A stretch of DNA of 64,000 nt from Terracoccus sp. 273MFTsu3.1 (GTDB taxonomy: Bacteria > Actinomycetota > Actinomycetes > Actinomycetales > Dermatophilaceae), in contig NZ_KB911826.1 in assembly GCF_000383675.1 (NCBI RefSeq), forward strand, positions 124,001 through 188,000, written 5' to 3'. The position numbers were made by a program, and so were the translations under genes. Shown here in pieces: positions 487 through 64,000 of the stretch (the first letter of the stretch is position 1; every line of letters starts with the position of its first letter). Under the pieces are notes generated by a model, which did not search any database, was not told the DNA's origin, and saw only the letters and a program-made list of their open reading frames with translations.

Positions 487-1461
487 TCACCCGAGGAGGC
501 GGAGGGTCAGCCACGTCGCGAGCGTGAAGACCGCGACGGTGGCCGCCGCGAGACCGACGAGCGCCCCGCCGGCCCAGGTGCCCACGGGAGCCGTCTCCGC
601 CGCACCCGTCGCGAGCCGATGGCGTATGCCGTCCAGCCGGTCCGCGAGCTCCAGCGCGGTCCGTGGGCGGCGGGCCGGGTCGTGGGCGAGGGCCGAGCGG
701 AGCAGCTCGTCGAGGTCGCGGGGGGTGCCGGCGACGGGAGCTACGGGCGACGGGGTGAGCTTCGGGTCGCGGGTGGCGATGCTGAGGAGGCCGTCGTCGA
801 CGGCATACGGCGACCTCCCGGTCAGGAGCGCGTACGTCACGGCCGCGGCGGCGTAGACGTCGGCGCGCTCGTCGAATCCCTTGGTGCCATGGGCCTGCTC
901 GGGCGCCATGTAGGCCGGGGTGCCGGCGGTCACGGTGAGACCCGAGGACTCGGCGAGAGCCTTGGCCATGCCGAGGTCGGCGATGACGACGTGGTCGCGC
1001 CCACCGCGGTCGGTCAGGAGCAGGTTGCCGGGCTTGACGTCGCGGTGGACGACACCGTGCTCGTGGAGCACGTGCAGGCCACGGGCCGCGTCGGCCCCGA
1101 TGGCGAGGGCGCGCGCGGGGTCGCGGGCCTCGTCCGACGCAACGACCGCCCGGAGGACGTCGGCGACCGTGCCGCCGTCGACGTAGTCCATGACGAAGTA
1201 CGGGCGCCCGTCGTCGAGCTCACCGAGATCGTGCACACGCACCACCCGGTCGTCGGAGAGCCGGCGCAGGAGCCGCGCCTCGGCGAGGAAGCGATGACGG
1301 ATGTCGAGGTCGGAGCTCCAGTTGTCGGCGAGGACCTTGATCGCCACGGGGACGGCGAGATCGGGGTCGTGCGCGAGCCAGACGGTCGCGAAGGCCCCGG
1401 CGCCCAGTCGGTGCCGGAGCTGGTAGCGACCGATAGCCTCCATCGCGTCATCATGGCCCAT
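487..1461 (-). CDS. Membrane-anchored Ser/Thr protein kinase (Hanks type)
   Basis: A 324-residue eukaryotic-like Ser/Thr kinase. The kinase domain covers roughly residues 10-275: glycine loop LGAGAF near 19-24, ATP-binding Lys42 (VAIKV), helix-C Glu61, catalytic loop VHRDVKPGN with Asp141, metal-binding Asp162 in ADLG (DLG rather than DFG), then GTPAYMAPE. One hydrophobic helix at about 294-322 ends the protein, so the kinase faces the cytoplasm and there is no extracellular sensor domain. The start is the ATG at 1461; a second Met at residue 7 is possible. It is divergent from an ECF sigma factor only 44 bases away, so control of that sigma factor is a reasonable guess but unproven. Confidence 0.9.
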   Translation of the reverse strand: MGHDDAMEAIGRYQLRHRLGAGAFATVWLAHDPDLAVPVAIKVLADNWSSDLDIRHRFLAEARLLRRLSDDRVVRVHDLGELDDGRPYFVMDYVDGGTVADVLRAVVASDEARDPARALAIGADAARGLHVLHEHGVVHRDVKPGNLLLTDRGGRDHVVIADLGMAKALAESSGLTVTAGTPAYMAPEQAHGTKGFDERADVYAAAAVTYALLTGRSPYAVDDGLLSIATRDPKLTPSPVAPVAGTPRDLDELLRSALAHDPARRPRTALELADRLDGIRHRLATGAAETAPVGTWAGGALVGLAAATVAVFTLATWLTLRLLG

Positions 1462-1505
1462 CCGCTGCGGCGGGCGGGCTCCGGGTCAGGGGAACGGAGC
1501 ACATC

Positions 1506-3082: not shown

Positions 3083-3134
3083 GGCCCTCTGATCCGCGCC
3101 GGGCATCCGGACAGATGGAACGGCAGATGGTGCC

Positions 3135-3166: not shown

Positions 3167-3200
3167 AGCACCATGCGCCGGTTGATGCCGAGGGAGGGTG

Positions 3201-4709
3201 TCAGCTCGCCTCGGCGCCGTCTGCTGCGGCGACGGCCACCGTCTCTCGAGTCGGCTCGCGGGTCGCCTCGGACGATGCGGCGACCGCCTGGGCCGGGCGC
3301 GGCCGGAGCACGAACGCCGCGACGAGCAGTGCCACGAGGGTGAACGTCGCCGACGTGAGGAACGCCGGCTCGACGCCCGGCACGAACTGGCCGGGGACCG
3401 CCTGCGAGGCGTACACGCTGACGATCGCGGCGAGGCCCACGGCGCCACCGAGCTGCTGCGCGGTCTGGAGCAGCCCGGAGACCGTGCCGGCCTGGGCGCG
3501 GTCGACGCCGCCGAGGACGACGACGGTGACCGGCATGAAGACGAGAGCGGCCGACACGCCGTTGAGCACCAGCGCACCCAGGAGGTGGCCGGCATACGTG
3601 CTCGTCGTCGACATGGAGCTCAGCCACACGAAGCTGGCGGTCAGGCCCAGCGTGCCCACGAGGAGCATCGGCCGGGGACCGACCTTGGCGACGAGACGGG
3701 CGCTGACCCGCGACGTCGCGAAGATCGCGAGGCTGAGCGGGAGGAACGCGGCGCCCGTCGCCACCGGGCTGAAGCCGAGGACGAGCTGGAGGTACTGGGT
3801 CACGAGGAAGAACGTCGAGAACTGCGCGCCGACGACGAGGGCCATGAGCACGAGGGCTCCCCCGCGGGTGCGGTTGCGGACGAGCGCGAGTGGCAGCAGC
3901 GGCGAGCTGACCCGACCCTCGGTGCGCACGAAGAGCGCGATGAGCAGCGCGCCGACGACGAAGGAGCCGATCGTCAGGGGCGAGGCCCAGCCGCGGTCGG
4001 CCGCGCTGATGAAGCCGTGCACGACGGAGACGGAACCGAGGGTAGCGGTGACCGCGCCGACCACGTCGAAGCGGCCACGGATCCTCGGCGTCTCGGTCAC
4101 GAAGCGGCGCGCGAGGACGAGCACGACGGCCCCGATCGGGACGTTGACGAAGAGCGTCCAGTGCCAGCTGACGTAGTCGGTGAGGATCCCGCCGAGGAGC
4201 AGGCCGATGGACGCGCCCGCGGACGACACGGCCGTGAAGAGCGCGAGACCGCGGTTGCGGGCCGCCTCGTTCGGGGCGCTCGTCGTGACCAGGGCGAGGA
4301 CGCTCGGTGCGGCGAACGCGGCGCCGACGCCCTGGAGGGTGCGCGCGGCGATGAGCCAGGCCGGGGACGTGGCGAGGCCACCGAGCAGGCTCGCGATCGT
4401 GAAGATCGCGAGGCCGACCTCGAAGATGCGCAGTCGCCCGAAGACGTCGCCGAGGCGCCCGCCCAGGAGCAGCAGCCCGCCGAAGGCGAGGGTGTACGCG
4501 TTGAGCACCCAGGAGAGGCCCGCGGGCGTGAACCCGAGGTCGGTCTGGATGTGCGGGAGCGCGACGTTCACGACGGTCGCGTCGAGCACGAGCATGAGCT
4601 GGGCGACGAGGACGACGCCGAGGCCGATGGCTCCGCGTCGGGCGGCCCGCTCCCCCGCGGAGCGCTCGGGTTGTCGGGTGACGGGTGATGCGGTGGTGCT
4701 GGTCGACAT
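3201..4709 (-). CDS. MFS drug exporter, DHA2 (EmrB/QacA) family
   Basis: A 502-residue proton-coupled exporter of the 14-TM DHA2 family, usually exporting hydrophobic drugs or toxic metabolites. The family signature LDATVVNVALPHIQTDLG lies in the first helix, followed by the motif-A loop GGRLGDVFGR and the helix-5 stretch SAGASIGLLLGGILTDYVSW. The start is the ATG at 4709 preceded by GAGGTCAGAG; the open frame extends upstream to 5033, but that extension is polar and lacks family similarity. A short ORF (4718-4957) ends nine bases upstream and a divergent TetR gene follows, so the exporter is probably TetR-repressed and ligand-induced. The substrate is unknown. Confidence 0.92.
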   Translation of the reverse strand: MSTSTTASPVTRQPERSAGERAARRGAIGLGVVLVAQLMLVLDATVVNVALPHIQTDLGFTPAGLSWVLNAYTLAFGGLLLLGGRLGDVFGRLRIFEVGLAIFTIASLLGGLATSPAWLIAARTLQGVGAAFAAPSVLALVTTSAPNEAARNRGLALFTAVSSAGASIGLLLGGILTDYVSWHWTLFVNVPIGAVVLVLARRFVTETPRIRGRFDVVGAVTATLGSVSVVHGFISAADRGWASPLTIGSFVVGALLIALFVRTEGRVSSPLLPLALVRNRTRGGALVLMALVVGAQFSTFFLVTQYLQLVLGFSPVATGAAFLPLSLAIFATSRVSARLVAKVGPRPMLLVGTLGLTASFVWLSSMSTTSTYAGHLLGALVLNGVSAALVFMPVTVVVLGGVDRAQAGTVSGLLQTAQQLGGAVGLAAIVSVYASQAVPGQFVPGVEPAFLTSATFTLVALLVAAFVLRPRPAQAVAASSEATREPTRETVAVAAADGAEAS

Positions 4710-4717
4710 CTCTGACC

Positions 4718-5754: not shown

Positions 5755-6690
5755 ATGACCGTCGACCTGCACCTCTTCACCGAGCCACAACAGGGCGCCA
5801 CCTACGACGACCTCCTCGCCGTCGCCCGTGCCGCCGAGGATCTCGGGTTCAGCGGCTTCTTCCGCTCCGACCACTACCTCGCCATGGGCGGGGACGGCGG
5901 CGCGGGGCCGACCGACGCGTGGACCACACTCGCCGGTCTGGCGCGTGACACGTCGACGATCCGCCTCGGCACGCTCGTCACGTCCGCCACCTTCCGCCTG
6001 CCCGGTCCGCTCGCGATCCAGGTCGCCGGCGTCGACCAGATGAGTGGTGGACGGGTCGAGCTGGGACTCGGCGCCGGCTGGTTCGAGGCCGAGCACACGG
6101 CATACGGCATCCCCTTCCCGCCGCTCGGCGAGCGCTTCGACCGCCTCGAGGAGCAGCTCGCGGTGATCACCGGCCTCTGGACTGCCGAGCCCGGGAAGAC
6201 CTTCAGCCACAACGGAACCCACTACCCCGTCATCGACTCCCCCGCACTGGCGAAGCCGGTGCAGCCTGGTGGCGTCCCGATCATCATCGGTGGTGGCGGC
6301 AAGCGACGCACGCCGGCACTGGCCGTGAGGTATGCCGCCGAGTTCAACGCGCCGTTCGTGTCGGCCCCCGATGCGGGCCGGCTCTTCGAGCGGGTCGGTG
6401 GCATGGCTCGAGAGGCCGGCCGAGAGGTCGGCTCGCTCAGGTACTCGGCGGCCCAGGTCGTCTGCGTGGGACGCGACGACGCGACCCTGCGACGCCGCGC
6501 CGAGGCCATCGGGCGCGACCTCGGCGAGCTGCGCGAGCACGGCCTCGCCGGCTCCCCCGACGAGGTCGTCGAGAAGATCGCGGCGTTCGAGGCGGTCGGC
6601 GCCGAGCGGGTCTACCTCCAGGTCCTCGACCTGTCCGACCTCGACCACGTGGCCGACGTCGCCGACGGCGTGCTGCGCCAGCTCGCCTGA
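5755..6690 (+). CDS. LLM-class (F420-dependent) oxidoreductase
   Basis: A 311-residue TIM-barrel flavin/F420 oxidoreductase of the luciferase-like monooxygenase superfamily. Visible family features are FFRSDHYL near the N terminus, GTLVTSATFRLPG, the conserved GGRVELGLGAGWFEAEH, the loop VPIIIGGGGKRR, and the C-terminal GSPDEVVEKIAAFEAVGAERVYLQ. Length and pattern match the actinobacterial F420-dependent subgroup; FMN or F420 cannot be decided from sequence alone. The ATG at 5755 follows GCAGGGG. It sits just downstream of the TetR gene, so it may serve a xenobiotic response together with the exporter. The substrate is unknown. Confidence 0.85.
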   Translation: MTVDLHLFTEPQQGATYDDLLAVARAAEDLGFSGFFRSDHYLAMGGDGGAGPTDAWTTLAGLARDTSTIRLGTLVTSATFRLPGPLAIQVAGVDQMSGGRVELGLGAGWFEAEHTAYGIPFPPLGERFDRLEEQLAVITGLWTAEPGKTFSHNGTHYPVIDSPALAKPVQPGGVPIIIGGGGKRRTPALAVRYAAEFNAPFVSAPDAGRLFERVGGMAREAGREVGSLRYSAAQVVCVGRDDATLRRRAEAIGRDLGELREHGLAGSPDEVVEKIAAFEAVGAERVYLQVLDLSDLDHVADVADGVLRQLA

Positions 6691-8630: not shown

Positions 8631-8989
8631 CGCAAGAGGTCGGCCACGTCGGTGTCGCCGCGCCGGCGGCGCCCGCCGCGGATGTCGTAGGACTCGACGA
8701 GCAGCTCCGCGAGCTCAGCCCGCTCGAGGCGGTCGAGGCGCGCCCACATCGACACGCGGTAGCGGAAGGTGTCGACCCGCACGAACGTGTCGAGCCGGTC
8801 GGCCAGCGCCTGCTCCGTGTCCATCTCGCCGGTCCACACCTGGACGAGCTCGCGCCCGTCGTCGTCCCAGCGCAGACGAGCGAACGTATGCCGTCCGGCG
8901 TGCCAGGCGGGAGAGCCCTCGTGGGCGACCCCGAGCACCGCGCCGGGCAGGCGCCCGGCCAGCTCGTCCACGTCCGCCCACGTCGCCAT
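8618..8989 (-). CDS. MmcQ/YjbR-like protein
   Basis: A 123-residue protein of the MmcQ/YjbR fold family, small cytoplasmic proteins with a CyaY-like DNA-binding fold and poorly defined function. Recognisable segments are the N-terminal WADVDELAGRLPGA, an HEGSPAWHAGRHTFARLR region and the C-terminal TDVADLL. The start is the ATG at 8989, preceded by GAGGAGGAG; a longer frame to 9046 lacks a ribosome site. The last codons (LLRNTP and stop) are encoded by the palindromic element, so the C terminus may have been reshaped by the repeat. No operon partner is apparent. Confidence 0.8.
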   Translation of the reverse strand: MATWADVDELAGRLPGAVLGVAHEGSPAWHAGRHTFARLRWDDDGRELVQVWTGEMDTEQALADRLDTFVRVDTFRYRVSMWARLDRLERAELAELLVESYDIRGGRRRRGDTDVADLLRNTP

Positions 8990-9100: not shown

Positions 9101-10432
9101 TCAGTGGAAGGTGACGGAGCGGCCGGCCTGCATGGCGGCGTACGCGTCGGGGTCGGCCTCGAGGGCCGCGCGCCGCGCCTTGTGGCGATAGCGCAGGATC
9201 TGCACGATGCCGAGCGCCCACACGGGGTACTGCACCGTCATCGCGACCCGGAACGCGTCGACGTCCCACGTCGACGGCCCACCGGGAGCGACCCGGTCGA
9301 GGACGACACCGACGAGGGCCACCGCCGTCAGCGTGGCGATGAAGCCGCCGGTGTTGACGATGCCCGAGGCGCTGCCGATGCGGGTCGGCGGGTTGAACGT
9401 GCGCGCGAGGTCGAAGCCGATCATCGAACCCGGGCCACCGATGGCGATGAGCACGACGAGGACCACGAGCATCCACAGCGGCGCGCGCCCGGGCCAGAGC
9501 AGCACCACGGTCCAGGCGGCGATCGCGGCGGCGACGATCCACAGCACGAGGGTGCTGCGCGAGAACGGGTAGCGCATCGTCAGCGTGCCGATGACGGGGC
9601 TCGACACAACCGTCGTGACGACCATGAGCATGAGCAGCACACTGGCCGTCGACGCCGAGACGCCTTGTCCTGCAATGAGGAACGGGAAGCCCCAGAGCAT
9701 CGTGAACATGTTTGCGGCGAACTGCGACGTGAAGTGTGACCACAGCCCGAGGCGGGTCCCCGGCACGAGCCACGCCGCCTTGAGGGTGCGCGCGATGGCC
9801 CGGAGCCGCAGCTCGTCGCGGTGGTGGTCGACATAGGGGCTGTCCTTGACGACGACGACGAGCGCGACCCCGGTGAGCACGCCGACCGACGCCGCCACGG
9901 CATACGACGGGGTCCAGCCGAAGTGGTCGAGCGCGGCCGCGAGCGGGCCGGCAGCGGCGAGCGCCCCGAGCTGGCCGAGGACGCCGGTCAGCTGCGTCAC
10001 CATCGGCGTGCGCCGCGGCGAGAACCACAGGGCGACGAGGCGCAGGACCGAGATGAACACCATGGCGTCGCCCATGCCGAGCAGCACCCGGCAGAGCAGT
10101 GCGGCCGGGAAGGCGTGCACGAACGCGAAGCCGAACTGGGCCAGCGTCAGGAGGGTGAGCCCGACCCCGAGCATCCGCTTGCTGCCGTAGCGGTCGAGCA
10201 GCGCCCCGACCGGCAGCTGCATCGCCGCGTAGACGAAGACCTGGACGATCGTGAAGGTCGACAGCTGCGAGCTGGAGATGCCGAACCGGTCGGCGGCCTC
10301 GAGACCGGCGACACCGAGCGACGTGCGGTGGAAGACGGCGAGGACGTAGACCGAGATGGCGGCCGCCCAGACCGCCCAGGCGCGGCGGCCGTCGAGCGGA
10401 TAGCGCTGTCCGGGATGGGTCGTGCTCGTCAT
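9101..10432 (-). CDS. MFS permease downstream of malic enzyme
   Basis: A 443-residue, roughly 12-TM major facilitator. N-terminal helix AWAVWAAAISVYVLAVFHRTSLGVAG contains a charged HRT motif common in anion:cation symporter-like MFS proteins; LLDRYGSKRM is the motif-A loop, and helix 5 reads LTGVLGQLGALAAAGPLAAAL. The ATG at 10432 starts 17 bases after the malic enzyme stop, so both are probably on one transcript. That pairing suggests an organic-acid or related carbon substrate, which is inference. The C-terminal tail (RRAALEADPDAYAAMQ) is cytoplasmic. Confidence 0.88.
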   Translation of the reverse strand: MTSTTHPGQRYPLDGRRAWAVWAAAISVYVLAVFHRTSLGVAGLEAADRFGISSSQLSTFTIVQVFVYAAMQLPVGALLDRYGSKRMLGVGLTLLTLAQFGFAFVHAFPAALLCRVLLGMGDAMVFISVLRLVALWFSPRRTPMVTQLTGVLGQLGALAAAGPLAAALDHFGWTPSYAVAASVGVLTGVALVVVVKDSPYVDHHRDELRLRAIARTLKAAWLVPGTRLGLWSHFTSQFAANMFTMLWGFPFLIAGQGVSASTASVLLMLMVVTTVVSSPVIGTLTMRYPFSRSTLVLWIVAAAIAAWTVVLLWPGRAPLWMLVVLVVLIAIGGPGSMIGFDLARTFNPPTRIGSASGIVNTGGFIATLTAVALVGVVLDRVAPGGPSTWDVDAFRVAMTVQYPVWALGIVQILRYRHKARRAALEADPDAYAAMQAGRSVTFH

Positions 10433-11976: not shown

Positions 11977-12063
11977 GTCGTATGCCGTCGCGCCGGCTTC
12001 CCGAGACGCCCACCGCAGCGCTCGCGCGCGTTCCACCGCGGAGGCGGGCACCCGGCATACGAC
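11977..12063. repeat. Inverted pair of the iterated octamer between divergent genes
   Basis: GTCGTATGCCG at 11977-11987 and its exact complement CGGCATACGAC at 12053-12063 flank 65 bases between the malic enzyme and P-type ATPase starts. Both contain the octamer GTATGCCG that recurs through the window. Confidence 0.55.
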
Positions 12064-14731: not shown

Positions 14732-15967
14732 GTGTCACCCATCGACTCCTACCGCCACCTCTTCGGCCTCACCGGCCGCACCTACATCGTCGTCGCCTTC
14801 CTGGCTCGTATGCCGCTCGCGATGAGCCAGCTGGGCACCCTCCTGCTCGTGTCGTCCGCCACCGGCAGCTACGGCGCGGGCGGCTTCTGCGCCGGTGCCC
14901 TCGCCGTGGCCAACGCCGTGGGGGCCCCCTTCTGGGGCGCCCGGGCCGACCGGCTCGGCCAGCGACGCGTCGTCGCCTTCCAGTCGCTCGCCGGGGCGGC
15001 CGGCCTCGTCGGCATCCTCCTCGTCGTCAACGCCGGACTCCCTTGGGGCGTGGCCGCGGTCGCGAGCGCAATCGCGGGTCTCCTTCTGCCGCAGATCGGT
15101 CCGCTGGCGCGCGTGCGCTGGCGCCCCATCACCGCCGAGACCGGGGCCCGCCAGCACCGGCTCGTCGACGCCGCCTTCTCCTACGAGGGCGCGGCCGACG
15201 AGGCCTCCTTCGTCCTGGGCCCGGCGCTCGTCGGGCTCGGCGTCTCGCTCGCGAGTCCCACGGCGGCGCTGGCGCTCGCGGCCGCGGGCCTCGCCGTCTT
15301 CGGCACGTGGTTCGCCCTGCACGAGACCGCGACGGTCACGCACGCCGCGACGTCACGGACGAGCGGCGCCGTCGGCCGGCTGATGACCCCCGCCGTCGTC
15401 GTCCTGTGCGCCGCCCAGCTGCTCGTCGGCACCGTCTTCGGGTCGGTCCAGACCGGCACGTCCGTCCTCGCCACCGCCGCAGGCTCCCCCGGCCTCACGG
15501 GCTACTTCCACGCGCTGCTCGGGGTCGGCAGCGTCATCGCCGGTCTCGCCGTCGCAGGACTCCCCGCCCGGTTCGCGCTGTCGGCGCGGCTGCGATGGTT
15601 CGCCGTCGGCCTGCTCACCCTCTCGGCGCCGCTCCTGCTCGTCGGGTCGCTGCCCGCGCTCGTGCCCGTCCTGCTCGTGCTCGGCCTCACCGTCGCGCCC
15701 TACATGATCACGACGTTCACGCTGGGCGAGCGCGTCACGCCGCCGTCCCGCACCGGCGCCGCGATGACGGCGCTCGCCGCGGCCACGGGGCTGGGCTACG
15801 CGGTCGGAGCCGCGCTCGCCGGACGCCTCGCCGACTGGGGCGGCCACACGCCGGCGTATGCCGTCACCGTCGGCGCCGGCGCCGCGGCCGTCCTCGTCTC
15901 GTGGGGATTCCGACGGGTCCTCGAGCGCGCCCAACCGCACGAGGCCGCGCCGGCGACCATCCCCTGA
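14732..15967 (+). CDS. MFS transporter
   Basis: A 411-residue hydrophobic protein with about 12 helices and MFS loops: GARADRLGQRRVVAF (motif A), an intracellular-loop segment FSYEGAADEASFVLGPALVG, and GRLADWGGHTPAYAVT near the C terminus. The pattern resembles sugar- or drug-efflux-like MFS proteins of actinobacteria, but the substrate is unknown. GTG at 14732 follows GGAG at 14720-14723. A short inverted repeat (GGATCTGG at 14654-14661, CCAGATCC at 14712-14719) lies in the leader and may be regulatory. It is convergent with the acetyltransferase gene downstream. Confidence 0.85.
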   Translation: MSPIDSYRHLFGLTGRTYIVVAFLARMPLAMSQLGTLLLVSSATGSYGAGGFCAGALAVANAVGAPFWGARADRLGQRRVVAFQSLAGAAGLVGILLVVNAGLPWGVAAVASAIAGLLLPQIGPLARVRWRPITAETGARQHRLVDAAFSYEGAADEASFVLGPALVGLGVSLASPTAALALAAAGLAVFGTWFALHETATVTHAATSRTSGAVGRLMTPAVVVLCAAQLLVGTVFGSVQTGTSVLATAAGSPGLTGYFHALLGVGSVIAGLAVAGLPARFALSARLRWFAVGLLTLSAPLLLVGSLPALVPVLLVLGLTVAPYMITTFTLGERVTPPSRTGAAMTALAAATGLGYAVGAALAGRLADWGGHTPAYAVTVGAGAAAVLVSWGFRRVLERAQPHEAAPATIP

Positions 15968-16633: not shown

Positions 16634-17760
16634 CGGACGGCACCACCCGTGAACGCCGGGGCGAGCGGCACGTCGGTGGCGGCATACGTCGTCTCGACGG
16701 CACGCGCCAGCCGGAGCGCGACCTCGGCGAGCTCGGGCAGCGCCCGCCCGAGCGCCGCGGTGCGCAGGAAGCGGTGCACCCGGTCGGGCATGCGCGGCAT
16801 CGGCTTGACCGGGTTGACCCCCTGCGGCTCCCCGTCGACGAGCCCGGCCAGGCACCAGCTGCCGGCGAGCCAGGCCCACGCCTCCGTCGCGAGGTCGAGG
16901 TCGTGGTCGAAGTCGGCACCCAGCACCTCGGGCCACTCCAGGGCCACGGCGTCCCGCCATCGCCCCAGTGCCACCTCCGCGGCCGACGTCTCGAGCGACC
17001 AGGCGCACCAGCACGTCGGCCACGGCACCCGGAGGTAGGCCGCGTCCCAGACGACCGGTCGCCACAACGCGAACTCGAAGTCGAGCAGGACGAGCCCCGC
17101 GTCGCGGACGAGGTTGTTGTCGGGGCACATGTCGGCGGCGGACAGGCTGCAGGCATCGACCCGGAAGCGGTCCGGCACCTTCGCGATCACGTCGAACGTC
17201 CCCGCCGGCACCGGGACGTCGAGGGCAGCGGCGAGGCGTTCCCACACCGAGACCGCCTCGGCGAGATGTGCCGGGAGGTAGTCGACGTCGACCGGCTCCG
17301 ACGAGCGGGACAGCACGCCGGCCTCGAAGGCCTCGCGCACCTGGTGCCCGGCCCGGTGCAGACCCGCCACGGCCGTGGCCCACCCGGACAACGTGGTCGA
17401 AGCCCGGTCGGCGTCGTCGCCGAGGAGCGCGTCGGCCAGGTGAGTGCCGTCCCCGAGGTCGCCCATGACGACGAGGCGCGGGTCGCTGGACTCAGCCACG
17501 AGGGTCGGTGTCTGCGCGACCCCGGTCAGCGCCTCGAGAGCGGACGCCTCGCGGGCGTAGGCCTCGCGTCCCTCGTCGCTGAGGTAGCGCTTGACCACGA
17601 ACGAGCGGCCCGACGGGTCGACGGTTCGCACGACGAGCGTGCGGCGGCTGCCGGGGAAGGGCTCGCCCACGGCTCGCAGCGGGCCTCCGACGAGACCGGC
17701 GGCGACGGCCAGCGTCTCGGCCAGGACGTCCTGGCCCACGTCTGCCCGGGTCGCGCTCAC
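16630..17760 (-). CDS. Aminoglycoside-phosphotransferase-fold kinase
   Basis: A 376-residue protein of the APH/choline kinase fold. An ATP-binding Lys lies in RSFVVKRYL, a catalytic-loop-like segment reads SAADMCPDNNLV, and the metal site is LLDFEFALWRPVVWDAAYL. The usual HGD of the catalytic loop is AAD here, while the Asp and downstream Asn are kept, so activity is plausible but the substrate is not predictable. GTG at 17760 is my start; GTG at 17805 would add 15 residues and has GAAAG next to it. It is coupled to a GNAT gene by overlap. Antibiotic resistance should not be assumed, since this fold covers many small-molecule kinases. Confidence 0.75.
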   Translation of the reverse strand: MSATRADVGQDVLAETLAVAAGLVGGPLRAVGEPFPGSRRTLVVRTVDPSGRSFVVKRYLSDEGREAYAREASALEALTGVAQTPTLVAESSDPRLVVMGDLGDGTHLADALLGDDADRASTTLSGWATAVAGLHRAGHQVREAFEAGVLSRSSEPVDVDYLPAHLAEAVSVWERLAAALDVPVPAGTFDVIAKVPDRFRVDACSLSAADMCPDNNLVRDAGLVLLDFEFALWRPVVWDAAYLRVPWPTCWCAWSLETSAAEVALGRWRDAVALEWPEVLGADFDHDLDLATEAWAWLAGSWCLAGLVDGEPQGVNPVKPMPRMPDRVHRFLRTAALGRALPELAEVALRLARAVETTYAATDVPLAPAFTGGAVR

Positions 17761-17990: not shown

Positions 17991-18059
17991 GTCATTCCGG
18001 GAGTATGCCGTCCCGCGGGCCAGGGATGCGCCCGCGCCGTGGCGTGTCGGACACGGAGA

Positions 18060-18098: not shown

Positions 18099-18105
18099 CG
18101 AGCCG

Positions 18106-24488: not shown

Positions 24489-24677
24489 GCCGGAAACCGT
24501 AACCGGTCGACCTGTAGGCGGCCGCCCCGGACGACAGGTCGTGACCGCATCGAGGCCGTATGCCGTGTCGCCCGGACCGTCTGCCGCGCCGGCTCCCGCA
24601 CGGGGCGGGTCGTAGGCCCGCCGAGCGCTCCCCCGTCACGCATGAAGAACCTCACACCACCGGCCGACCCGGGTGGG

Positions 24678-26639: not shown

Positions 26640-27867
<1,228 letters not shown>

Positions 27868-40972: not shown

Positions 40973-42378
40973 TAGCGCCAGCCGTCCGCGGCGACCCCGC
41001 CCGGCACGTCGCCGGCCGGGTCGTAGGGCGTACGCGTGAAGCGGAACGACGCGAGGTCGAGGTGCGACGGCGTGCCGTCGGCGGCACGCACGACCCGAAG
41101 CGGCTCGCCCGTGTAGTAGCCGTCCAGCCCCACCCAGACGTCGGGGCCGTCCGCGACGAAGCGCGAGCCGCGGGCCTGGCCGGGCTCACCGAGCACGAGA
41201 TGCTCTCCGACGACCTTCGCCATGGACACCGACGGCCCCCAGTGCCACGTTCCGACGAGCTCGAGGGCCGACGGGTCCCCCGATGCGAACCACGGCTCCG
41301 GCGCTCGTGGCTCGCGCGCGACGAACGCCGCGAGCAGCTCGGGGGCGATCTGGCCCATGCCGCTCGTCGTGTTGGTGACCACGACGACACCGTCACCGCT
41401 CTCGATCTCGACGCGCAGGCCCGCGAGGAAACCGGGCATCGAGCCGCCGTGGCCGGCATACCTCGTGCCGTCGACGTTCCAGACCTGCCAGCCGAGCCCG
41501 TGGGCGGTGGTCCAGGGCTGGCCGGGGTTGTCGTTGATCGTGTGGGGCTCGTACATCTCGGCGAGGGTGTCGGACGACAGGAGCTCGGCCGTGTCGCCCC
41601 CGGCGAACGTGGCCCAGCGCGCCAGGTCCTGCACCGTGGTCCAGAGCTGCCCGGCGGGGGCCATCGCGCCCGCGTCGTGCTCGGGCTCGGGCAGCAGGAC
41701 GTCGGCGAAGGGGTGCACCGCAAGACCCTGCGCGGCCCGGCCGCTGGGGCGGGTCGTCGTCCGGGACATGCCGAGCGGGTCGAGCAGGCCGCGCCGGACG
41801 ACCTCGAACCAGTCGACCCCGTGCGCCCGGGCCAGGAGCTCGCCCAGGGCCGCGAAGCCGACATTCGTGTAGTGGAATCGTCGACCGGCCCGGAAGCGCT
41901 GCCCCACAGGTGATCCCGCGACGCCGCCCGCGAGCGACTCCCAGTCACCCCCGGGCGTCCGCTCCCACCACGGGCCGTTCGTCTCGGCCTGCACCCCGCC
42001 CCCGTGCGAGAGCAGCTGGGCGATCGTTGCCCCGCCGAACCGCGAGCCGGGCACGTGGTCCTCGAACCGGTCGAGCAGGTCGACCCGGCCGGCATCGCGC
42101 AGGCGCATGACAGCCACGGCCACGAAGGTCTTCGTGATGGAGCCCATCCGGTACTGCGTGTCGGCGTCGGCCGGCTGCCCGCCGAGGCGGCCGTCGAGAG
42201 TGCCGATGGCGTCGGACCACACGAGAGCGCCGCCACGCACGATCCCGGCGGCGACCGAGGGCAGGCGACCACGGCGCTGCTCGGTCGCGAGGAGGTGGTG
42301 CAGGTGGCGGGCGGTGACGGGGTCGATCACGCCGTCGGTGCCCGGGACGTCGGCGGCGCTGCGCGGGTCGGTGCTCAC
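40972..42378 (-). CDS. Beta-lactamase-fold serine hydrolase
   Basis: A 468-residue serine hydrolase of the class C beta-lactamase/esterase group. The catalytic SxxK is Ser80-Lys83 (GSITKTF), the YxN motif is Tyr170-Asn172 (HYTNVGF), and the third motif is HGG in AGHGGSMPG. No signal peptide is present with the GTG at 42378 (GGAG six bases upstream), so it appears cytoplasmic; a longer frame to 42480 also lacks a convincing signal. The C-terminal 120 residues form an extra beta-rich domain. Esterase or peptidase action is more likely than antibiotic resistance. Confidence 0.85.
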   Translation of the reverse strand: MSTDPRSAADVPGTDGVIDPVTARHLHHLLATEQRRGRLPSVAAGIVRGGALVWSDAIGTLDGRLGGQPADADTQYRMGSITKTFVAVAVMRLRDAGRVDLLDRFEDHVPGSRFGGATIAQLLSHGGGVQAETNGPWWERTPGGDWESLAGGVAGSPVGQRFRAGRRFHYTNVGFAALGELLARAHGVDWFEVVRRGLLDPLGMSRTTTRPSGRAAQGLAVHPFADVLLPEPEHDAGAMAPAGQLWTTVQDLARWATFAGGDTAELLSSDTLAEMYEPHTINDNPGQPWTTAHGLGWQVWNVDGTRYAGHGGSMPGFLAGLRVEIESGDGVVVVTNTTSGMGQIAPELLAAFVAREPRAPEPWFASGDPSALELVGTWHWGPSVSMAKVVGEHLVLGEPGQARGSRFVADGPDVWVGLDGYYTGEPLRVVRAADGTPSHLDLASFRFTRTPYDPAGDVPGGVAADGWR

Positions 42379-42546: not shown

Positions 42547-44769
42547 TTGGACTCGACAATCATCTACACGCACACGGACGAGGCGCCCGCCCTGGCCACG
42601 GCCTCGCTGCTGCCCATCGTCTCGGCCTTCGCCAAGCAGGCCGGCGTCGAGGTCGAGACGCGTGACATCTCACTCTCGGGTCGCATCATCGCCGCGTTCC
42701 CCGACGCCCTGAAGCCGGAGCAGCGGATCGGTGACGCCCTGGCCGAGCTCGGAGCGCTCGCCAAGACGCCCGAGGCCAACATCATCAAGCTCCCCAACGT
42801 CTCGGCGTCGATCCCGCAGCTCAAGGCCGCCGTCGCCGAGCTCCAGGCCGCGGGCTACGCCCTGCCCGACTACCCCGACACTCCGTCCACCGACGAGGAG
42901 AAGGCGGCTCGGGCGGCATACGACAAGATCAAGGGTTCGGCCGTCAACCCCGTTCTGCGGGAAGGCAACTCGGACCGCCGTGCCCCGGCGTCGGTGAAGA
43001 GCTACGCGCGCAAGCACCCGCACTCGATGGGCGCGTGGAGCGCCGACTCCAAGACCAACGTCGCAACGATGGGTGCCGACGACTTCCGCCACAACGAGAC
43101 GTCCGTCGTCCTGCCTGCCGACGACACGCTGCGCGTCGAGCTCGTCGGCGCCGACGGGTCCACCACCGTCCTCAAGGAGTCGATCCCCGTCCTCGCCGGC
43201 GAGGTCGTCGACGCGACGTTCATGGACGTCGCGAAGCTGCGTGACTTCCTCTCCGAGCAGGTCGCCCGGGCCAAGGCCGAGGGCGTCCTCTTCTCGGTGC
43301 ACCTCAAGGCCACGATGATGAAGGTCTCCGACCCGATCATCTTCGGTCACGTCGTGCGCGCCTTCTTCCCCGACGTCTTCGAGACGTATGCCGGCGCGCT
43401 GGCCTCCGTGGGGGCATCCCCCAACGACGGGCTCGGCGCCGTGCTCAAGGCCGTCGAGGGCCTGCCCGCCGACGAGCGCGCCGAGGTCGAGGCCGCGGTC
43501 GCCCAGGGCTTCGAGGAGGGCCCCGCCATCGCGATGGTCGACTCGAACAAGGGCATCACCAACCTCCACGTCCCGAGCGACGTCATCGTCGACGCGTCGA
43601 TGCCGGCGATGATCCGCACGTCGGGCCACATGTGGAACCGCGAGGGGGGCGAGCAGGACACGCTCGCCGTGCTGCCGGACAGCTCGTACGCCGGCATCTA
43701 CCAGGTCGTCCTCGACGACTGCCGCACCAACGGCGCCTACGACCCGTCGACGATGGGCTCGGTCTCCAACGTCGGGCTCATGGCGCAGGCCGCCGAGGAG
43801 TACGGCAGCCACGACAAGACGTTCGAGATCCCGGCGGACGGCACCGTGCGCGTCGTCGACTCCTCGGGCACGACCCTGCTCGAGCACGCCGTCTCGGCGG
43901 GCGACATCTGGCGAGCCTGCCAGACGAAGGACGTGCCCATCCGTGACTGGGTCAAGCTCGCCGTCACCCGCGCTCGCGCCACCGGCACGCCGGCGATCTT
44001 CTGGCTCGACGCCGACCGCGCCCACGACGCGAACCTCATCACCAAGGTGAACGAGTACCTCACCGAGCACGACACCGACGGCCTGACCATCGAGATCATG
44101 AAGCCGACCGACGCGATCGCCTACTCCCTCGGGCGCATCCGCAAGGGCGAGGACACGATCTCGGTCACCGGCAACGTGCTGCGCGACTACCTCACCGACC
44201 TCTTCCCGATCCTCGAGCTCGGCACCTCGGCCAAGATGCTGTCGGTCGTCCCGCTCATCAACGGCGGTGGCCTCTTCGAGACCGGCGCCGGCGGCTCGGC
44301 CCCGAAGCACGTGCAGCAGCTCGTCCAGGAGAACTACCTCCGCTGGGACAGCCTCGGAGAGTTCCTCGCCCTGGCCGTCAGCTTCGAGCACCTCGCCGAC
44401 GTCACCGACAACGCCCGCGCGCGGGTGCTCGGCGAGACCCTCGACCGTGCCACCGGCACGCTCCTCGACGAGAACAAGGGCCCGGCGCGCAAGGTCGGCC
44501 AGATCGACAACCGCGGAAGCCACGTGTGGCTGGCCCTCTACTGGGCCCAGGAGCTCGCCCGGCAGACCGACGACGCAGCGCTGGCCGAGACGTTCGGCCC
44601 CGTGGCGCAGGCCCTCGTCGACAACATCGACACGATCTCCCGGGAGCTCGTCGACGCCCAGGGACACCCGGTCGACATCGGCGGCTACTACCGTCCCGAC
44701 GCGGCCAAGGTCGCCTCGGTCATGCGCCCGTCGAAGACCTTCAACCAGATCATCGACGCCCTCTCCTGA
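42547..44769 (+). CDS. icd: Monomeric NADP-dependent isocitrate dehydrogenase
   Basis: A 740-residue monomeric-type enzyme oxidising isocitrate to 2-oxoglutarate with NADP in the TCA cycle, a form common in actinobacteria. The family opening [23 protein letters not shown], the segment [25 protein letters not shown], the substrate/metal region [25 protein letters not shown], and [37 protein letters not shown] are all visible (each quoted from separate places). The start is a TTG at 42547 with GGAG eight or nine bases upstream; TTG may lower expression. A palindrome lies upstream and a strong terminator downstream. Its product, 2-oxoglutarate, is the node controlled by the PknG pathway encoded at the end of the window. 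Confidence 0.95.
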
Positions 44770-44822: not shown

Positions 44823-44918
44823 TGTCGTATGCCGTCACGCGCGTCGGCGCGGACGTGCCGTGGGCACGCGGCCGGCTGCACGGCACACGCCCCGGCCGGC
44901 CGGCGCGGCAACCTGCCG

Positions 44919-50359: not shown

Positions 50360-50833
50360 TCACCGCGGGCCGACGTTCCCGTCACCAGAGCCACGGGGCG
50401 CGACCGGCAGCGTGTAGACGACGTAGCCCTCGAACGTCGCGACCTCGTCGTAGAGCCGCCGCGCGACGGCGTTCGACTCGTGGGTCTGCCAGTAGACGCT
50501 GCCGCAGCCGTGCTCGCGTGCCCAGTCACGCACGGCCGCGATGAGGGCGCTCGCCGCACCCCGACCACGCGTCGCCGGGTCGGTGAAGAGGTCCTCGAGG
50601 TAGCAGAGGTCTGGCTCGCTCGAGCTGGGGTGCACGAGGAAGTGGGTGATCCCGACGAGCTCGCCGTCGAGCCACGCTCCGATCCCGTGCAGCCTTGTGT
50701 CAGAGGCGATCTCGTGCCACGCCCTGTCGTATGCCGCGTGGCCGAGCTCGCGCTCGTAGAAGCGGATGTACGCGCGGAAGAGCACCTCCCACCGGTCCCG
50801 GTCGGCGGGTCCCAGACGTCGGGTCTCGATCAC
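50360..50833 (-). CDS. GNAT acetyltransferase
   Basis: A 157-residue GNAT protein. It begins IETRRLGPADRDRWEVLFRAY; the acetyl-CoA site is CYLEDLFTDPATRGRGAASALI, and the end (VYWQTHESNAVARRLYDEVATFEGYVVY) resembles the diamine/thialysine N-acetyltransferase group, which keeps this Trp and Tyr pattern. The start is a GTG at 50833. It lies 12 bases upstream of the PIG-L gene on the same strand. The substrate is likely a small amine. Confidence 0.85.
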   Translation of the reverse strand: MIETRRLGPADRDRWEVLFRAYIRFYERELGHAAYDRAWHEIASDTRLHGIGAWLDGELVGITHFLVHPSSSEPDLCYLEDLFTDPATRGRGAASALIAAVRDWAREHGCGSVYWQTHESNAVARRLYDEVATFEGYVVYTLPVAPRGSGDGNVGPR

Positions 50834-50888
50834 GACCCGACGCTAGCGCGACGACGCCGTGCGCGGCAGGACCACCACACGGCATACC

Positions 50889-53813: not shown

Positions 53814-54105
53814 GGTGCACCTTCAACTTCCCGCATCTCACGTGCAGCGGATTCGTCGCTGCCCCGACGTGGACGCGGACCGACCGTAACAGCCCGCGCC
53901 GAGTGCGGTCTCACGACATCCACCGGACAGGGCGTATGCCGCCCGCCGCGGGCCGAGTCCCCGGCTCGCTCGCGTGAGTGGCGGGGTCACCTGCCGCGGG
54001 TGCGTCGAAAAGGCGCCCCACGGCATACGCCCTCGGGGAATGATGGCGAGTCAGCGCTCGTTCCCCATGGTAGTTTAGACTTCAACAACTTCGGAAGGAA
54101 CCGCC
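53814..54105. promoter_or_regulatory. Divergent promoter region, topA / dioxygenase
   Basis: Within 292 bases lies a perfect 12-bp inverted repeat, GGGCGTATGCCG at 53930-53941 and its complement at 54021-54032, both holding the iterated octamer. Nearer the dioxygenase gene is an A/T-rich TAGTTTAGACTTCAAC (54071-54086) whose TAGACT (54076-54081) could be a -10 box and whose GTT/AAC ends hint at an operator. No ORF is evident. Confidence 0.45.
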
Positions 54106-56619: not shown

Positions 56620-57255
56620 GTGGGAATCCGGTCGTGGTTCGGGTTGGACAGGCCCGAGGCACCCGAGCCCGTGCGCTCGGGGCCACCGACCACCGAGCAG
56701 CTCCTCGGGGCGCTCGACGCCATCGAGGCCCAGGCCCGCGAGGGCAAGGTGCCCGGCGTCGTGCTCTCGCGCCTGCTGCGTGTCACCCGGATCGTGCGCC
56801 AGACCCTGCCGCGCCTGTCCAACCTCGGCCTCGGCAGCAGCCAGGGCTTCAGCGTGATGGCCACCGCCACCGACTACCTGCCGGTCGCCATCGGCAACTA
56901 CCTGCGCCTGCCGCGCGACTGGGCCGACACGCGTCCCATCGCGGCGGGCAAGAGCTCCGTCATGCTCCTCGTCGACCAGCTCGACCTGCTCGGCACGACG
57001 ATGGACAAGGTCTACGACGCCGTATGCCGTGCCGACGCCGAGGCGATCATCGTGCACGGGGCGTTCCTCGAGCAGAAGTTCGGCCAGGCGTCGGAAGGCG
57101 GCGTGCTCGGGCTCGGTCCGGACCCCGTGCAGGTCGCGCCACCGCCCGGCTCGGGGTCGGGCTCGTCGGGAGCCGCGGGCTCGTCGGGAACCGCGGACCC
57201 GCCCGGCGCCGTCAGCACGTCACCGTCCCCCCACCCGCTGGCCCCGCCGGAGTGA
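56620..57255 (+). CDS. Hypothetical protein between TelA-like and AAA+ genes
   Basis: A 211-residue protein I do not recognise. Residues 1-145 look globular and mainly helical (TTEQLLGALDAIEAQAREGK, SRLLRVTRIVRQTLPRLSNL, VMATATDYLPVAIGNYLRLPRDWA); the last 50 are a Gly/Ser/Pro-rich disordered tail. No signal peptide or membrane helix is present. TelA-family genes elsewhere are often next to XpaC-type proteins; this one has a similar size and helical character, but similarity is too weak for me to claim. GTG at 56620 follows GAGGGG. The position implies a shared complex with the neighbouring TelA-like and AAA+ proteins. Confidence 0.75.
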   Translation: MGIRSWFGLDRPEAPEPVRSGPPTTEQLLGALDAIEAQAREGKVPGVVLSRLLRVTRIVRQTLPRLSNLGLGSSQGFSVMATATDYLPVAIGNYLRLPRDWADTRPIAAGKSSVMLLVDQLDLLGTTMDKVYDAVCRADAEAIIVHGAFLEQKFGQASEGGVLGLGPDPVQVAPPPGSGSGSSGAAGSSGTADPPGAVSTSPSPHPLAPPE

Positions 57256-61350: not shown

Positions 61351-62585
61351 GCGCAATGCCGCAGAGCCACCCCGACCCGGGCACCGTCGCACCGACGGCA
61401 CCCGGGCGGCTCGGCGTGCCCGTGCAGGCCGGCGAGGCCCAGACCTACCTCAACGCGTTGCGCGAGTGGGTCGCCCAGCGCCGCGCCGACCTCGGCGAGG
61501 TCGACCGTGCGGTCCTCAAGCTCTCGCAGGCCGAGCAGGTCGCGATCACCACCGACCTCACCGTGGCGCTCACCTTCTGGAAGGCCGTCAGCGACCGCCT
61601 GACCCTCCTCGAGACGACCTTCGACGGCGGCCGCGTCGGTCCCGTCGAGGCCGAGCGCCTCTCGACCCTCATCCACGGACGGCTTGACTCCAACACGACC
61701 GAGCACCTCGCGCTGCCGTCGAGCGGCTCGCTCGCGGTGAGCCTCCCGGAGGCGTGCCGGCTGCTCGACTCGTTGACCCGCACCCTCCAGGCGCGGGCCT
61801 CCCTCGCCCCCGGGGCGGCGGAGGCGACGCAGCGGATCACCATGGTGCGGGCCGGGATCGAGCGCACCCGCGACCAGATCCCGCTGGTCCCGGCCGGCAC
61901 GCAGCGTGACGACGCCACCGAGAAGCTCGCGCGGCTCGACCGCCGGATGGACGACCTCGTGGAACGCGCCCGTCGTGGCGCCGACGTCGGCGGGATCATC
62001 GGCCCCCTCGAGATCGACGTGGCCGTGCTCGAGCGCGACCTCATCGTCGCCGCCGCCGAGCGCGCCTCCGCCGCGCGCAGCCGGGTGCGCACCCAGCAGC
62101 AGGTCGAGGAGCTCGACGCGCGCGCCGCCGCCATCCGGGCCCTCGAACGCGCCTGCCTCGAGGCGATCACGCCGGCACCCCACCTCGCGATCCCCAACGT
62201 CCGAGCGCTGGGACCCGTGCCGCAGGCGGCAGCCGAGCTCACGGCATACCGCGACAAGCTCGAGCGGGTCTCCCGGGCGCTCGACCTCGCCCACGAGACG
62301 TATGCCGCCGGGCTGGCCGAGCGGGACGAGGTCGTCGGGCTCGTGGGTGCCGTCGGCGCCATGGCCGCCGCCGCGACGCTGACTCCCGAGGCGGGAGCCG
62401 ACGTGGCCGAGCTGCGCCGCCGCCTCGACGAGACGCTCGCCGCCCGCCCGCTGCCGATCTCCCGTGCCCGCGCCCTCGCCGCGGCCTTCTCGGCCTACGT
62501 CGACGCGGCCACCCGCCCGCAGCCCCGTGCCGCTCGAGCCACTCCCCGTCCCAACGCACCCCGACCCCAGAGGCCCCGCCCATGA
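61347..62585 (+). CDS. Hypothetical helical protein between glnH and pknG
   Basis: A 412-residue soluble, strongly helical protein without signal peptide or TM helix. Heptad-like stretches (LNALREWVAQRRADLGEVDRAVLKLSQAEQ; VAVLERDLIVAAAERASAARSRVRTQQQVEELDARAAAIRALERACLEA, in parts) predict long coiled coils at about 33-70 and 225-275. The C terminus (about 385-412) is Pro/Arg-rich and basic. I recognise no domain. ATGA overlaps link it to the GlnH-like and PknG-like genes, so it is produced in step with them and may scaffold the kinase or AAA+ complex. Mycobacterial glnH-pknG clusters lack this gene. Confidence 0.78.
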   Translation: MSAMPQSHPDPGTVAPTAPGRLGVPVQAGEAQTYLNALREWVAQRRADLGEVDRAVLKLSQAEQVAITTDLTVALTFWKAVSDRLTLLETTFDGGRVGPVEAERLSTLIHGRLDSNTTEHLALPSSGSLAVSLPEACRLLDSLTRTLQARASLAPGAAEATQRITMVRAGIERTRDQIPLVPAGTQRDDATEKLARLDRRMDDLVERARRGADVGGIIGPLEIDVAVLERDLIVAAAERASAARSRVRTQQQVEELDARAAAIRALERACLEAITPAPHLAIPNVRALGPVPQAAAELTAYRDKLERVSRALDLAHETYAAGLAERDEVVGLVGAVGAMAAAATLTPEAGADVAELRRRLDETLAARPLPISRARALAAAFSAYVDAATRPQPRAARATPRPNAPRPQRPRP

Positions 62586-64000
62586 ACTGCACGCAGCCGG
62601 GCTGCACCGGAACGATCGTCGACGGCTACTGCGACGTGTGCGGCATGGCCGCCGGCTCCACCCCCGCCACCGCCGTCAGGGCACCGGCCCCGGCCGCGGC
62701 CGCCGTCCCCGGTCCGTCCATCCCTGAAGGTGGCGCCTGCCAGCAGCCCGGATGCACGGGCACGATCGATGCTGGCTACTGCAACGTCTGTGGCACGCCG
62801 GCCGACCAGCTCGGTGTCGCCGGGTATGCCGCCCCCTCCGCGCCGTCCGTCGCTGCCACCACGGGCGCCGCCGCGGCCACAGGGGCCACCGGAGGTGTCG
62901 GCCCCGAGATCTCCACGCGCTCGGCCGCCTCGAGCAACCTCGCGTCGGCAGCATTGGGCTCCAAGCGTGCCCGCGAGGCCGGGTCCATCGCCACGCGTCG
63001 CACGGGGGGCTCGCAGCGCCTGCGCTCGGCCCGCCTCGGTGGCGGCATCACCTCGGTGCGCCCGGCACCCGAGATCGACGCCGAGAAGGCCCTGCTCACC
63101 AACCCGTCCGTGCCCGAGAACAAGCGCTTCTGCCCGAAGTGCGGCGAGCCGGTCGGTCGCGGCCGCGACGGCAAGCCGGGTCGGACGACCGGCTTCTGCG
63201 CCAACTGCCGCCACCCGTTCTCCTTCGACCCCAAGCTCAAGGCGGGCGACCTCGTCGCGGGCCAGTACGAGGTCGCCGGCTGCCTCGCCCACGGCGGCCT
63301 CGGCTGGATCTACCTGGCACGCGACAAGAACGTCTCGGACCGGTGGGTCGTGCTCAAGGGCCTGCTCAACTCGGCCGACCCCGACGCCCTCGCGGCGGCC
63401 ATCGCCGAACAGCGCTTCCTCGCGCAGGTGTCGCACCCGAGCATCGTCGAGATCTACAACTTCGTCACGCACGACGACGCCGGCTACATCGTCATGGAGT
63501 ACGTCGGCGGCACCTCGCTCAAGTCGATCCTCAAGCAGCGCCTCCAGGCCGCCGGGAAGTACGACCCGCTGCCCGTCGACCAGGCCCTCGCCTACATCCT
63601 CGAGATCCTGCCGTCGTTCCAGTACCTGCACGACCTCGGGCTCGTCTACTGCGACTTCAAGCCCGACAACATCATCCAGGTCGGCGACGAGGTCAAGCTC
63701 ATCGACCTCGGTGGCGTGCGCCGCGCCGACGACGACGACTCGGCGATCTTCGGCACCGTCGGCTACCAGGCCCCCGAGGTGGCCGAGCTCGGCGTCTCCG
63801 CCGCCTCTGACATCTACACCATCGGGCGCACCCTCGTCGTGCTGACGATGGAGTTCCGTGGCTACCAGACGACCTTCCTCAACACCCTCCCGGCCCAGGA
63901 CACCGTGCCGGTCTTCCAGCGCTACGACTCGTTCTACCGGCTCGTCGCGAAGGCGTGCGCGCCCAACCGGGACGACCGATTCGTCTCGGCCGACGAGCTG
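62582..64000 (+). CDS. pknG: PknG-like Ser/Thr protein kinase, 3' end outside the window
   Basis: A cytoplasmic kinase; 473 residues are visible before the window ends. Two identical-spacing zinc ribbons open the protein (Cys3, 8, 17, 20 and Cys53, 58, 67, 70). A disordered Ala/Ser/Arg-rich linker follows, then a rubredoxin-like site (Cys184, 187, 206, 209), as in PknG. The kinase domain starts near 222: GGLGWIYLARD loop, Lys259 in VVLKG, catalytic loop VYCDFKPDN with Asp358 (YCD replaces HRD), DLG motif LIDLGGV, and GTVGYQAPE. PknG phosphorylates FHA proteins (GarA/OdhI) controlling 2-oxoglutarate dehydrogenase. ATGA overlap with the upstream gene. A TPR domain is expected beyond the edge. 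Confidence 0.92.
   Translation, partial: MNCTQPGCTGTIVDGYCDVCGMAAGSTPATAVRAPAPAAAAVPGPSIPEGGACQQPGCTGTIDAGYCNVCGTPADQLGVAGYAAPSAPSVAATTGAAAATGATGGVGPEISTRSAASSNLASAALGSKRAREAGSIATRRTGGSQRLRSARLGGGITSVRPAPEIDAEKALLTNPSVPENKRFCPKCGEPVGRGRDGKPGRTTGFCANCRHPFSFDPKLKAGDLVAGQYEVAGCLAHGGLGWIYLARDKNVSDRWVVLKGLLNSADPDALAAAIAEQRFLAQVSHPSIVEIYNFVTHDDAGYIVMEYVGGTSLKSILKQRLQAAGKYDPLPVDQALAYILEILPSFQYLHDLGLVYCDFKPDNIIQVGDEVKLIDLGGVRRADDDDSAIFGTVGYQAPEVAELGVSAASDIYTIGRTLVVLTMEFRGYQTTFLNTLPAQDTVPVFQRYDSFYRLVAKACAPNRDDRFVSADEL

Follow-up and report, generated by a model that had tools for sequence, protein, structure and literature searches.

DNA uptake sequences (DUS) of the Neisseriaceae are strict, non-palindromic words that occur in thousands of copies, differ between clades as dialects, can be present as two dialects in one genome, stand at conserved sites and form close inverted pairs as terminators (PMC3630211, PMC2397512). 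The uptake signal sequences (USS) of the Pasteurellaceae are nine-base words that number in the hundreds to thousands, fall into two subtypes and form inverted pairs (PMC12616744, PMC3630211). A second class, the highly iterated palindrome 1 (HIP1) of cyanobacteria and its alternates, comprises highly iterated octamers that are palindromic, are tied to methyltransferases and are other words in some genomes (PMC4390886). Chi is an asymmetric over-represented octamer. The octamer GTATGCCG, which is repeated throughout a 64-kb stretch of the genome of Terracoccus sp. 273MFTsu3.1 (the window, by which the whole stretch is meant), was compared with these systems; it shares with DUS and USS the many copies, the clade-wise variants and the close inverted pairs, with DUS also strictness, conserved sites and two words in one genome, with HIP1 the high iteration and the use of other words in some genomes, and with Chi the asymmetry. 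With a probability of roughly 55%, GTATGCCG serves its clade as a self-tag in the manner of DNA uptake sequences, which would make it the first in Gram-positive bacteria.

Abundance of the word

The window corresponds to positions 124001-188000 of contig C7 in a genome (G000) of 4.94 Mb and 18 contigs. It contains 33 exact matches, 18 with the word on the forward strand (read as GTATGCCG) and 15 with the word on the reverse strand (read as CGGCATAC). Dinucleotide shuffling of the window (100 shuffles) gave a mean of 0.72 copies and a maximum of 3, and a third-order Markov model fitted to the window predicted 1.28. The base 5′ of the word was C in 24 of the 33 copies. Ten copies were located outside genes and the other 23 were divided between one codon phase (14) and the others (9); genes were called by a simple GC-frame caller of our own, so that coding and intergenic counts are approximate throughout. 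The sequence-only reading had counted the same 33 copies, with positions that were confirmed here, against a rough expectation of about two; a preceding C in most cases, several codon frames and at least eight intergenic copies, which it also stated, were reproduced. The enrichment extends beyond the window: the whole genome holds 1,133 + 1,111 = 2,244 copies on the two strands (ca. 1 per 2.2 kb), compared with 257 of the reversed string. By z score GTATGCCG was the most over-represented octamer in a sample of 822,690 bases of this genome (361 copies), where a third-order Markov model again failed to predict the count (16.6 expected). These results go against both conditions under which the sequence-only reading would have been refuted, a count predicted by such a model and an enrichment limited to the window. 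Flanking bases in the window's genome showed weak preferences only. In a sister genome with a complete chromosome (G158), a sample of 480,000 bases yielded 319 copies (13.5 expected); the density in G158 is ca. 1 per 1.4 kb.

All nine genomes of the window's genus that were examined were rich in the word (1,423 to 2,358 copies), the lowest value being that of a genome 74 % complete. A sample of the order (248 genomes) consisted of the window's own genome, 18 further members of its family and 229 genomes from other families. Ten of the 18 family members carried 1,142 to 2,982 copies and eight carried 7 to 71; the 229 others held at most 177 copies each, usually no more than a few-fold away from the control string, and none was rich. 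Within the order as sampled, richness in GTATGCCG is confined to one family. Its placement by named topA loci is Intrasporangiaceae and relatives, and we take its GTDB name to be Dermatophilaceae. Among 119 genomes of this family (53 genera) 61 exceeded 150 copies per Mb (word-rich), 15 had 40 to 150 (middling) and 43 had fewer (word-poor). Three or more copies were found in 10 of 80 named topA loci, and in a topA tree of 32 rows, including 24 of these 80 loci, a single supported clade united all ten of them with Intrasporangium, Knoellia, Phycicoccus, Flexivirga, Metallococcus and others. The nearest named relatives of the window's genus in this tree were Intrasporangium and Humibacillus. In genus g105 two genomes, G274 and G333, had 1,062 and 3,681 copies and a third, G311, had 19; the low count of G311 is most simply explained by loss of the word.

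In genome G221 (genus g10; loci L140, L141, L181 and L182) 22 of 24 sampled copies of GTATGCCG extended as GTATGCCGCT, and several formed a longer hairpin resembling a repetitive extragenic palindrome (REP). Most of the sampled copies thus belong to a longer stretch of common sequence, and the g10 counts may include a repeat element besides the word. A record titled as a metagenome-assembled genome (MAG) of Acidobacteria (ATN4; locus L021) is probably mislabelled, because its topA groups with Ornithinimicrobium.

Maintenance of the word against codon bias

Synonymous codon shuffling of 702 called genes (30 shuffles) left 13.1 coding copies on average (standard deviation 4.0, maximum 19), compared with 250 observed; locus L107, which consists entirely of N, was left out of this and all later analyses. 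The preferred frame, xxG TAT GCC G (Tyr-Ala), accounted for 153 of the 250 coding sites. TAT was used for 153 of 213 tyrosine codons in the context G-Tyr-GCC-G (72 %) versus 128 of 4,260 outside the word (3 %), and the corresponding values in G158 were 94 of 107 versus 314 of 2,118. The word was denser between genes (0.86 per kb) than in coding sequence (0.36 per kb). With respect to the coding strand, the two orientations were represented by 162 and 88 copies in the sample of the window's genome and by 115 and 103, a non-significant difference, in G158.

Conservation was analysed in the region round topA, with sites at alignment gaps dropped and genome G005, in which topA was not found, omitted. 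Seven congeners were compared with the window's genome, and its copies had an exact counterpart in 67 of 87 cases, as opposed to 2 of 22 for [GC]TAT[GC]4 controls (Fisher p = 5e-9, the comparisons not being independent). Over all ordered pairs of the eight genomes, which likewise are not independent, GTATGCCG was kept in 497 of 728 cases and the controls in 17 of 203, the average for any octamer being 47 %. In Intrasporangium oryzae (83 % identity) five of six GTATGCCG sites were kept, compared with 30 % for any octamer. GTATGCCG is thus preserved at orthologous sites in spite of codon bias.

Dialects and a replacement word

Only a few of the 24 single-base variants were raised in the sample of the window's genome, chiefly GGATGCCG (168 versus 87.5 expected) and GTACGCCG (103 versus 48); variants at the ends of the word were hardly raised. 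Sister genera use GGATGCCG as their main word. It ranked first among the octamers of two MAGs, one of Humibacillus (12 in 12.9 kb) and one labelled Dermatophilaceae (33 in 16.3 kb), and among the 119 family genomes it reached 3,816 and 3,838 copies in genus g98, 3,949 in g106 and 2,099 to 4,480 in four genomes of g120; the remaining 112 had 241 to 1,336, with the maximum in G243 of g11. G339 carried ca. 1 copy per 0.8 kb. Two of the g120 genomes, G289 and G318, were rich in both GTATGCCG and GGATGCCG; two words in one genome have been reported for Simonsiella (PMC3630211). The word of G042 (genus g3) and of Flexivirga is GTATGNCG, with no fixed base at the sixth position. The topA tree placed g98, g106 and Humibacillus in a clade sister to the window's genus and Intrasporangium, and the Dermatophilaceae MAG beside Knoellia with weak support. 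As this MAG sits apart from the former clade, the change to GGATGCCG probably happened more than once.

Samples of 12 kb from six further genera with low or middling counts revealed no clear strong word. GTACGCCG was mildly raised in three of these six and in Allobranchiibius; this rise may be a Tyr-Ala codon effect, and for this reason no dialect is claimed for it.

The Janibacter-like genera g5 and g9 were poor in GTATGCCG (7 to 41 copies per genome). All seven of their genomes contained 1,311 to 1,939 copies of CGAAGGGGG, evenly on both strands, whereas counts in the remaining 112 family genomes ranged from 11 to 80, and its density in two Janibacter loci was 0.56 and 0.48 per kb. CGAAGGGGG was noticed in loci L168, L169, L174, L175, L236, L025 and L026. 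A sample of 140 kb gave 74 copies, 53 of them coding; the word was denser between genes and strict at most positions. Six of nine close pairs were convergent, and one pair was computed to fold at −30.5 kcal/mol. CGAAGGGGG is a word unrelated to GTATGCCG that stands in its place in this clade.

Pairs, placement and mobile DNA

Pairs less than 100 bases apart in the samples of the window's genome and G158 (n=37) were convergent in 22 cases, divergent in 10 and direct in 5, so that 32 of 37 were inverted (p = 7e-6); close pairs as such did not exceed the Poisson expectation in these samples. Thirteen convergent intergenic pairs had a spacing of no more than 60 bases; 12 of them were situated within 80 bases 3′ of a stop codon, and five of the 13, chosen by hand, were computed to fold at −31 to −38 kcal/mol with z from −4.2 to −11. 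The inverted arrangement is that expected of uptake-word terminators, in which role these pairs are putative.

Replichore polarity was absent from G158, where it did not exceed 52.7 % over trial origins placed every 105 kb (319 sites, 24 stretches). Of the 20-kb stretches of this chromosome, 23 of 24 held 9 to 19 copies and the remaining one (L146) held 3.

The mean over 37 such stretches of the window's genome was 8.9. One of them (L115, C1:840001-860000) contained no copy and is prophage-like, with 16 called genes, all co-directional, which include those of a portal protein, a major head protein, a contractile tail sheath and a tape measure. Another 20-kb stretch, with metal-transport genes, contained 1 copy, and no copy was present on a contig of 14 kb that carries an IS110 transposase; these two may have been acquired recently. 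The called genes scanned were 9 of 16 in L115, 5 of 10 in L105 and 5 of 16 in L103. The sample thus included three stretches that look mobile, and GTATGCCG is scarce in them (0, 0 and 1 copies). Counts were also low in L099 (4 copies), L106 (3 kb, 0 copies) and the above-mentioned L146 of G158.

Copies in the window and further observations

Table 1. Positions of GTATGCCG in the window, with context and state in aligned relatives.
Position	Strand	Context	Match or conservation
624..631	+		exact match
801..808	-		exact match
3590..3597	-		exact match
6098..6105	-		exact match
6330..6337	+		exact match
8886..8893	+		exact match
9898..9905	-		exact match
11980..11987	+	intergenic, convergent with 12053	exact match
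12053..12060	-	intergenic, convergent with 11980	exact match
14808..14815	+		exact match
15856..15863	+		exact match
16680..16687	-		exact match
18003..18010	+	outside called genes, ca. 95 bases from tRNA-Thr 18105-18179	exact match
22884..22891	-		kept in G002 (1 congener aligned)
24558..24565	+		kept in G002 (1 congener aligned)
25265..25272	-		kept in G002 (1 congener aligned)
27077..27084	-		kept in G002 (1 congener aligned)
27146..27153	-		kept in G002 (1 congener aligned)
28458..28465	+		kept in 2/2 congeners aligned
31430..31437	+		kept in G001 (1 congener aligned)
36745..36752	+		kept in 2/3 congeners aligned
41454..41461	-		kept in 4/6 congeners aligned and I. oryzae
42914..42921	-	in monomeric isocitrate dehydrogenase gene	kept in 4/7 congeners, not in I. 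oryzae
43386..43393	+	in monomeric isocitrate dehydrogenase gene	kept in 5/7 congeners, I. oryzae and G267
44827..44834	+	outside called genes	kept in 2/3 congeners aligned without gap
50729..50736	+		kept in 6/7 congeners
50880..50887	-	outside called genes, ca. 150 bases beyond topA 3′ end	kept in 6/7 congeners
53934..53941	+	intergenic, upstream of topA, convergent with 54021	kept in 6/6 congeners aligned
54021..54028	-	intergenic, convergent with 53934	kept in 5/6 congeners aligned
57022..57029	+		kept in 4/7 congeners and I. oryzae
62242..62249	-	divergent with 62300	kept in 6/7 congeners and I. oryzae
62300..62307	+	divergent with 62242	kept in 7/7 congeners, I. oryzae and G267
62824..62831	+	outside called genes	kept in 2/6 congeners aligned

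GAGGTAG/CTACCTC occurred in 32 copies in the window (for example at 26, 2590 and 5874), compared with 7.4 predicted by a third-order model; 287 copies were counted in 821 kb of the genome sample, a density below that of the window. In G144 (genus g8; L172, L173) the palindrome GGCGTACGCC stood at 6 places in 40 kb, which makes 12 counts on the two strands together versus 0.36 expected, and is possibly a HIP-like word. In G074 (L168, L169, L236) runs of at least eight C or G were common, with 31 octamer matches in 40 kb versus 3.8 expected and 30 C/G-run octamers in 20 kb versus 2.1. CGCCGTCG or CGACGTCG was the most raised octamer in many Micrococcaceae topA loci of Arthrobacter and relatives (L050-L080), at a weaker level than GTATGCCG. 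In the Neisseria word GCCGTCTGAA is preceded by AT. GTATGCCGTC resembles this GCCGTCTGAA (PMC6370729), and the resemblance is noted as a lead only.

Discussion

Abundance on both strands and the existence of dialects are traits of DUS and USS, and GTATGCCG matches these words better than HIP1, Chi or the FtsK-orienting polar sequences (KOPS). The uptake-like reading is based on a set of traits: the word is abundant on both strands, strictly asymmetric and conserved, it forms hairpins from inverted pairs downstream of genes, it has dialects, two words can share a genome, and it is scarce in the three mobile-looking stretches sampled. The word is accordingly held, at the odds given at the outset, to work like an uptake word, and is not filed as one. 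It differs from DUS in that its host is Gram-positive and has no evident type IVa pilus, that it has 8 bases instead of 10-12 and that it is known from sequence alone. It differs from USS in the word itself and in gene placement: the bias of USS towards gene termini that one study reported (PMC2346458) was not seen here when all sites were taken together.

If the uptake-like reading is correct, a cell-surface receptor would prefer DNA bearing GTATGCCG; word-bearing alleles would be imported and recombined more often, and molecular drive, alone or together with selection, would therefore let copies accumulate and keep them. Dialects would arise when the receptor mutates, and loss of the uptake system would let the word decay. 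The receptor would most plausibly be a minor pilin of a Flp/Tad pilus or a partner of ComEA/ComEC. The window's genome encodes ComEC next to a ComEA-like helix-hairpin-helix gene, and ca. 60 kb from the end of the window the same contig has a locus for a Flp/Tad pilus, with T2SSE ATPase, AAA_31 ATPase, RcpC/CpaB, TadE and Flp. Naturally competent Micrococcus luteus has Flp pili and homologues of comEA and comEC (PMC6370729). A more specific proposal is that this Gram-positive family tags its own DNA and reads it with a Flp/Tad-type competence system, in the dialects GTATGCCG, GGATGCCG and GTATGNCG and with the exchanged word CGAAGGGGG, as a third independent origin of uptake sequences; we consider the chances for and against it evenly balanced. 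On that proposal, the unrelated word CGAAGGGGG of one clade would imply a changed or substituted receptor and a genome that was tagged anew.

Several observations weigh against an uptake-like function. ComEC and TadE were each found in 115 of the 119 family genomes and neither tracks the word; no gene cluster round ComEC separated word-rich from word-poor genomes among clusters present in at least 4 of 21 genomes, and no receptor or causal gene was found in the ComEC neighbourhoods or through the presence of ComEC, TadE and PilM in the family. The type IVa pilus component PilM occurred in 5 of the 119 genomes and not in the window's genome; a Neisseria-type pilus is for this reason not evident, and a type IVa pilus, as judged by this marker, was rejected. 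The dialects do not occupy the same places: same-genus GTATGCCG sites were kept in 0 of 59 cases in G275 and in 14 of 63 in G267, and GGATGCCG was not among the commonest counterparts of the 59 aligned sites in G275. Gene-terminus bias was absent over all sites (quintile p = 0.21 in the window's genome, 0.76 in G158); of four gene-position tests on single orientations, only that of reverse copies in G158 gave a low value (p = 0.036, uncorrected). One orientation is reported to be commoner in reading frames in all genomes tested for uptake words (PMC2346458); the orientation excess in genes holds in the sample of the window's genome, not in G158. Among the literature matches listed there was no report of competence in this group, and a word driven by methylation or repair could share most of the traits. 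No paper on GTATGCCG was found among the open-access matches listed, judged by titles and the openings of abstracts; two papers that contained the words as whole words had titles on other subjects.

A drive by methylation or repair, like that proposed for HIP1, is the main rival. The word would be or contain a methyltransferase target, created or protected by methylation-directed mismatch repair, and the dialects would be changes of specificity; we regard this as unlikely. Great abundance, strictness and clade-wise replacement do resemble the alternate HIPs (PMC4390886), and an adenine is open to methylation in each of GTATGCCG, GGATGCCG, GTATGNCG and CGAAGGGGG. HIPs, however, are palindromic and linked to methyltransferases, whereas GTATGCCG is asymmetric, not being its own reverse complement, and the words found here are non-palindromic with 8-9 bases. 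To our knowledge, this exceeds the contiguous asymmetric sites of methyltransferases, and we know of no HIP with inverted-pair hairpins. Variants at the end positions were hardly raised, whereas HIP1 deviates most at its ends. A conserved type IIG-like methyltransferase of class PF07669, the one class searched for, was rejected: the domain was absent from the window's genome and from two of three sampled congeners (G004 has one) and is scattered over the family (73 of 119 genomes). The likeness to HIP1 drawn by the sequence-only reading therefore stands for abundance and clade-wise replacement, and is not supported beyond these, given the non-palindromic word, the inverted-pair hairpins at gene ends and the family dialects; its statements that codon or protein preference is no explanation and that KOPS- or Chi-like polarity is lacking agree with the synonymous shuffling, the TAT test and the polarity bound in G158.

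Improbable as well is a Chi-like site for recombination or against degradation, read by a helicase-nuclease (AdnAB or another). A strict non-palindromic octamer of high density with a coding-strand excess in the window's genome would suit such a site; the excess is missing in G158, as is replication polarity, and inverted hairpin pairs and complete replacement of the word would be unexpected. RecC (PF04257; AdnAB was not searched for) was present in 47 of the 119 family genomes, namely 24 of 43 word-poor, 7 of 15 middling and 16 of 61 word-rich ones. Chi of RecBCD was rejected, RecC being absent from the window's genome and from 45 of the 61 word-rich genomes. The inverse relation of RecC and word richness may be phylogenetic only.

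A site of a chromosome-organising or segregation protein (KOPS-, matS- or TraB/clt-like) is very doubtful. In its favour, the size of an octamer fits readers of the FtsK/TraB type; against it, the word is present in thousands of copies and in all 24 sampled stretches of G158, it is missing from sister genera that still need segregation, and polarity of the KOPS or Chi kind was rejected on the bound of 52.7 %. A compositional or codon artefact, or the spread of a short repeat element, to which the longer shared sequence and partly REP-like hairpin of most sampled G221 copies would conform, can be dismissed for the window's genome, since shuffles, Markov models, synonymous shuffling and the TAT test all fail to explain the counts and flank preferences are weak.

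If the uptake-like reading is true, GTATGCCG would be the first uptake-type self-tag outside those few Gram-negative groups. As a third case, among Gram-positive bacteria in which a type IVa pilus is not evident, it would mean that self-tagging evolved again on different machinery, and the family would be a natural laboratory for the origin, dialect change and replacement of such words. If methylation is the cause instead, HIP1 would have an asymmetric counterpart in this word. In both cases GTATGCCG provides a ready handle for tests and could help to recognise foreign DNA that these genomes acquired recently.

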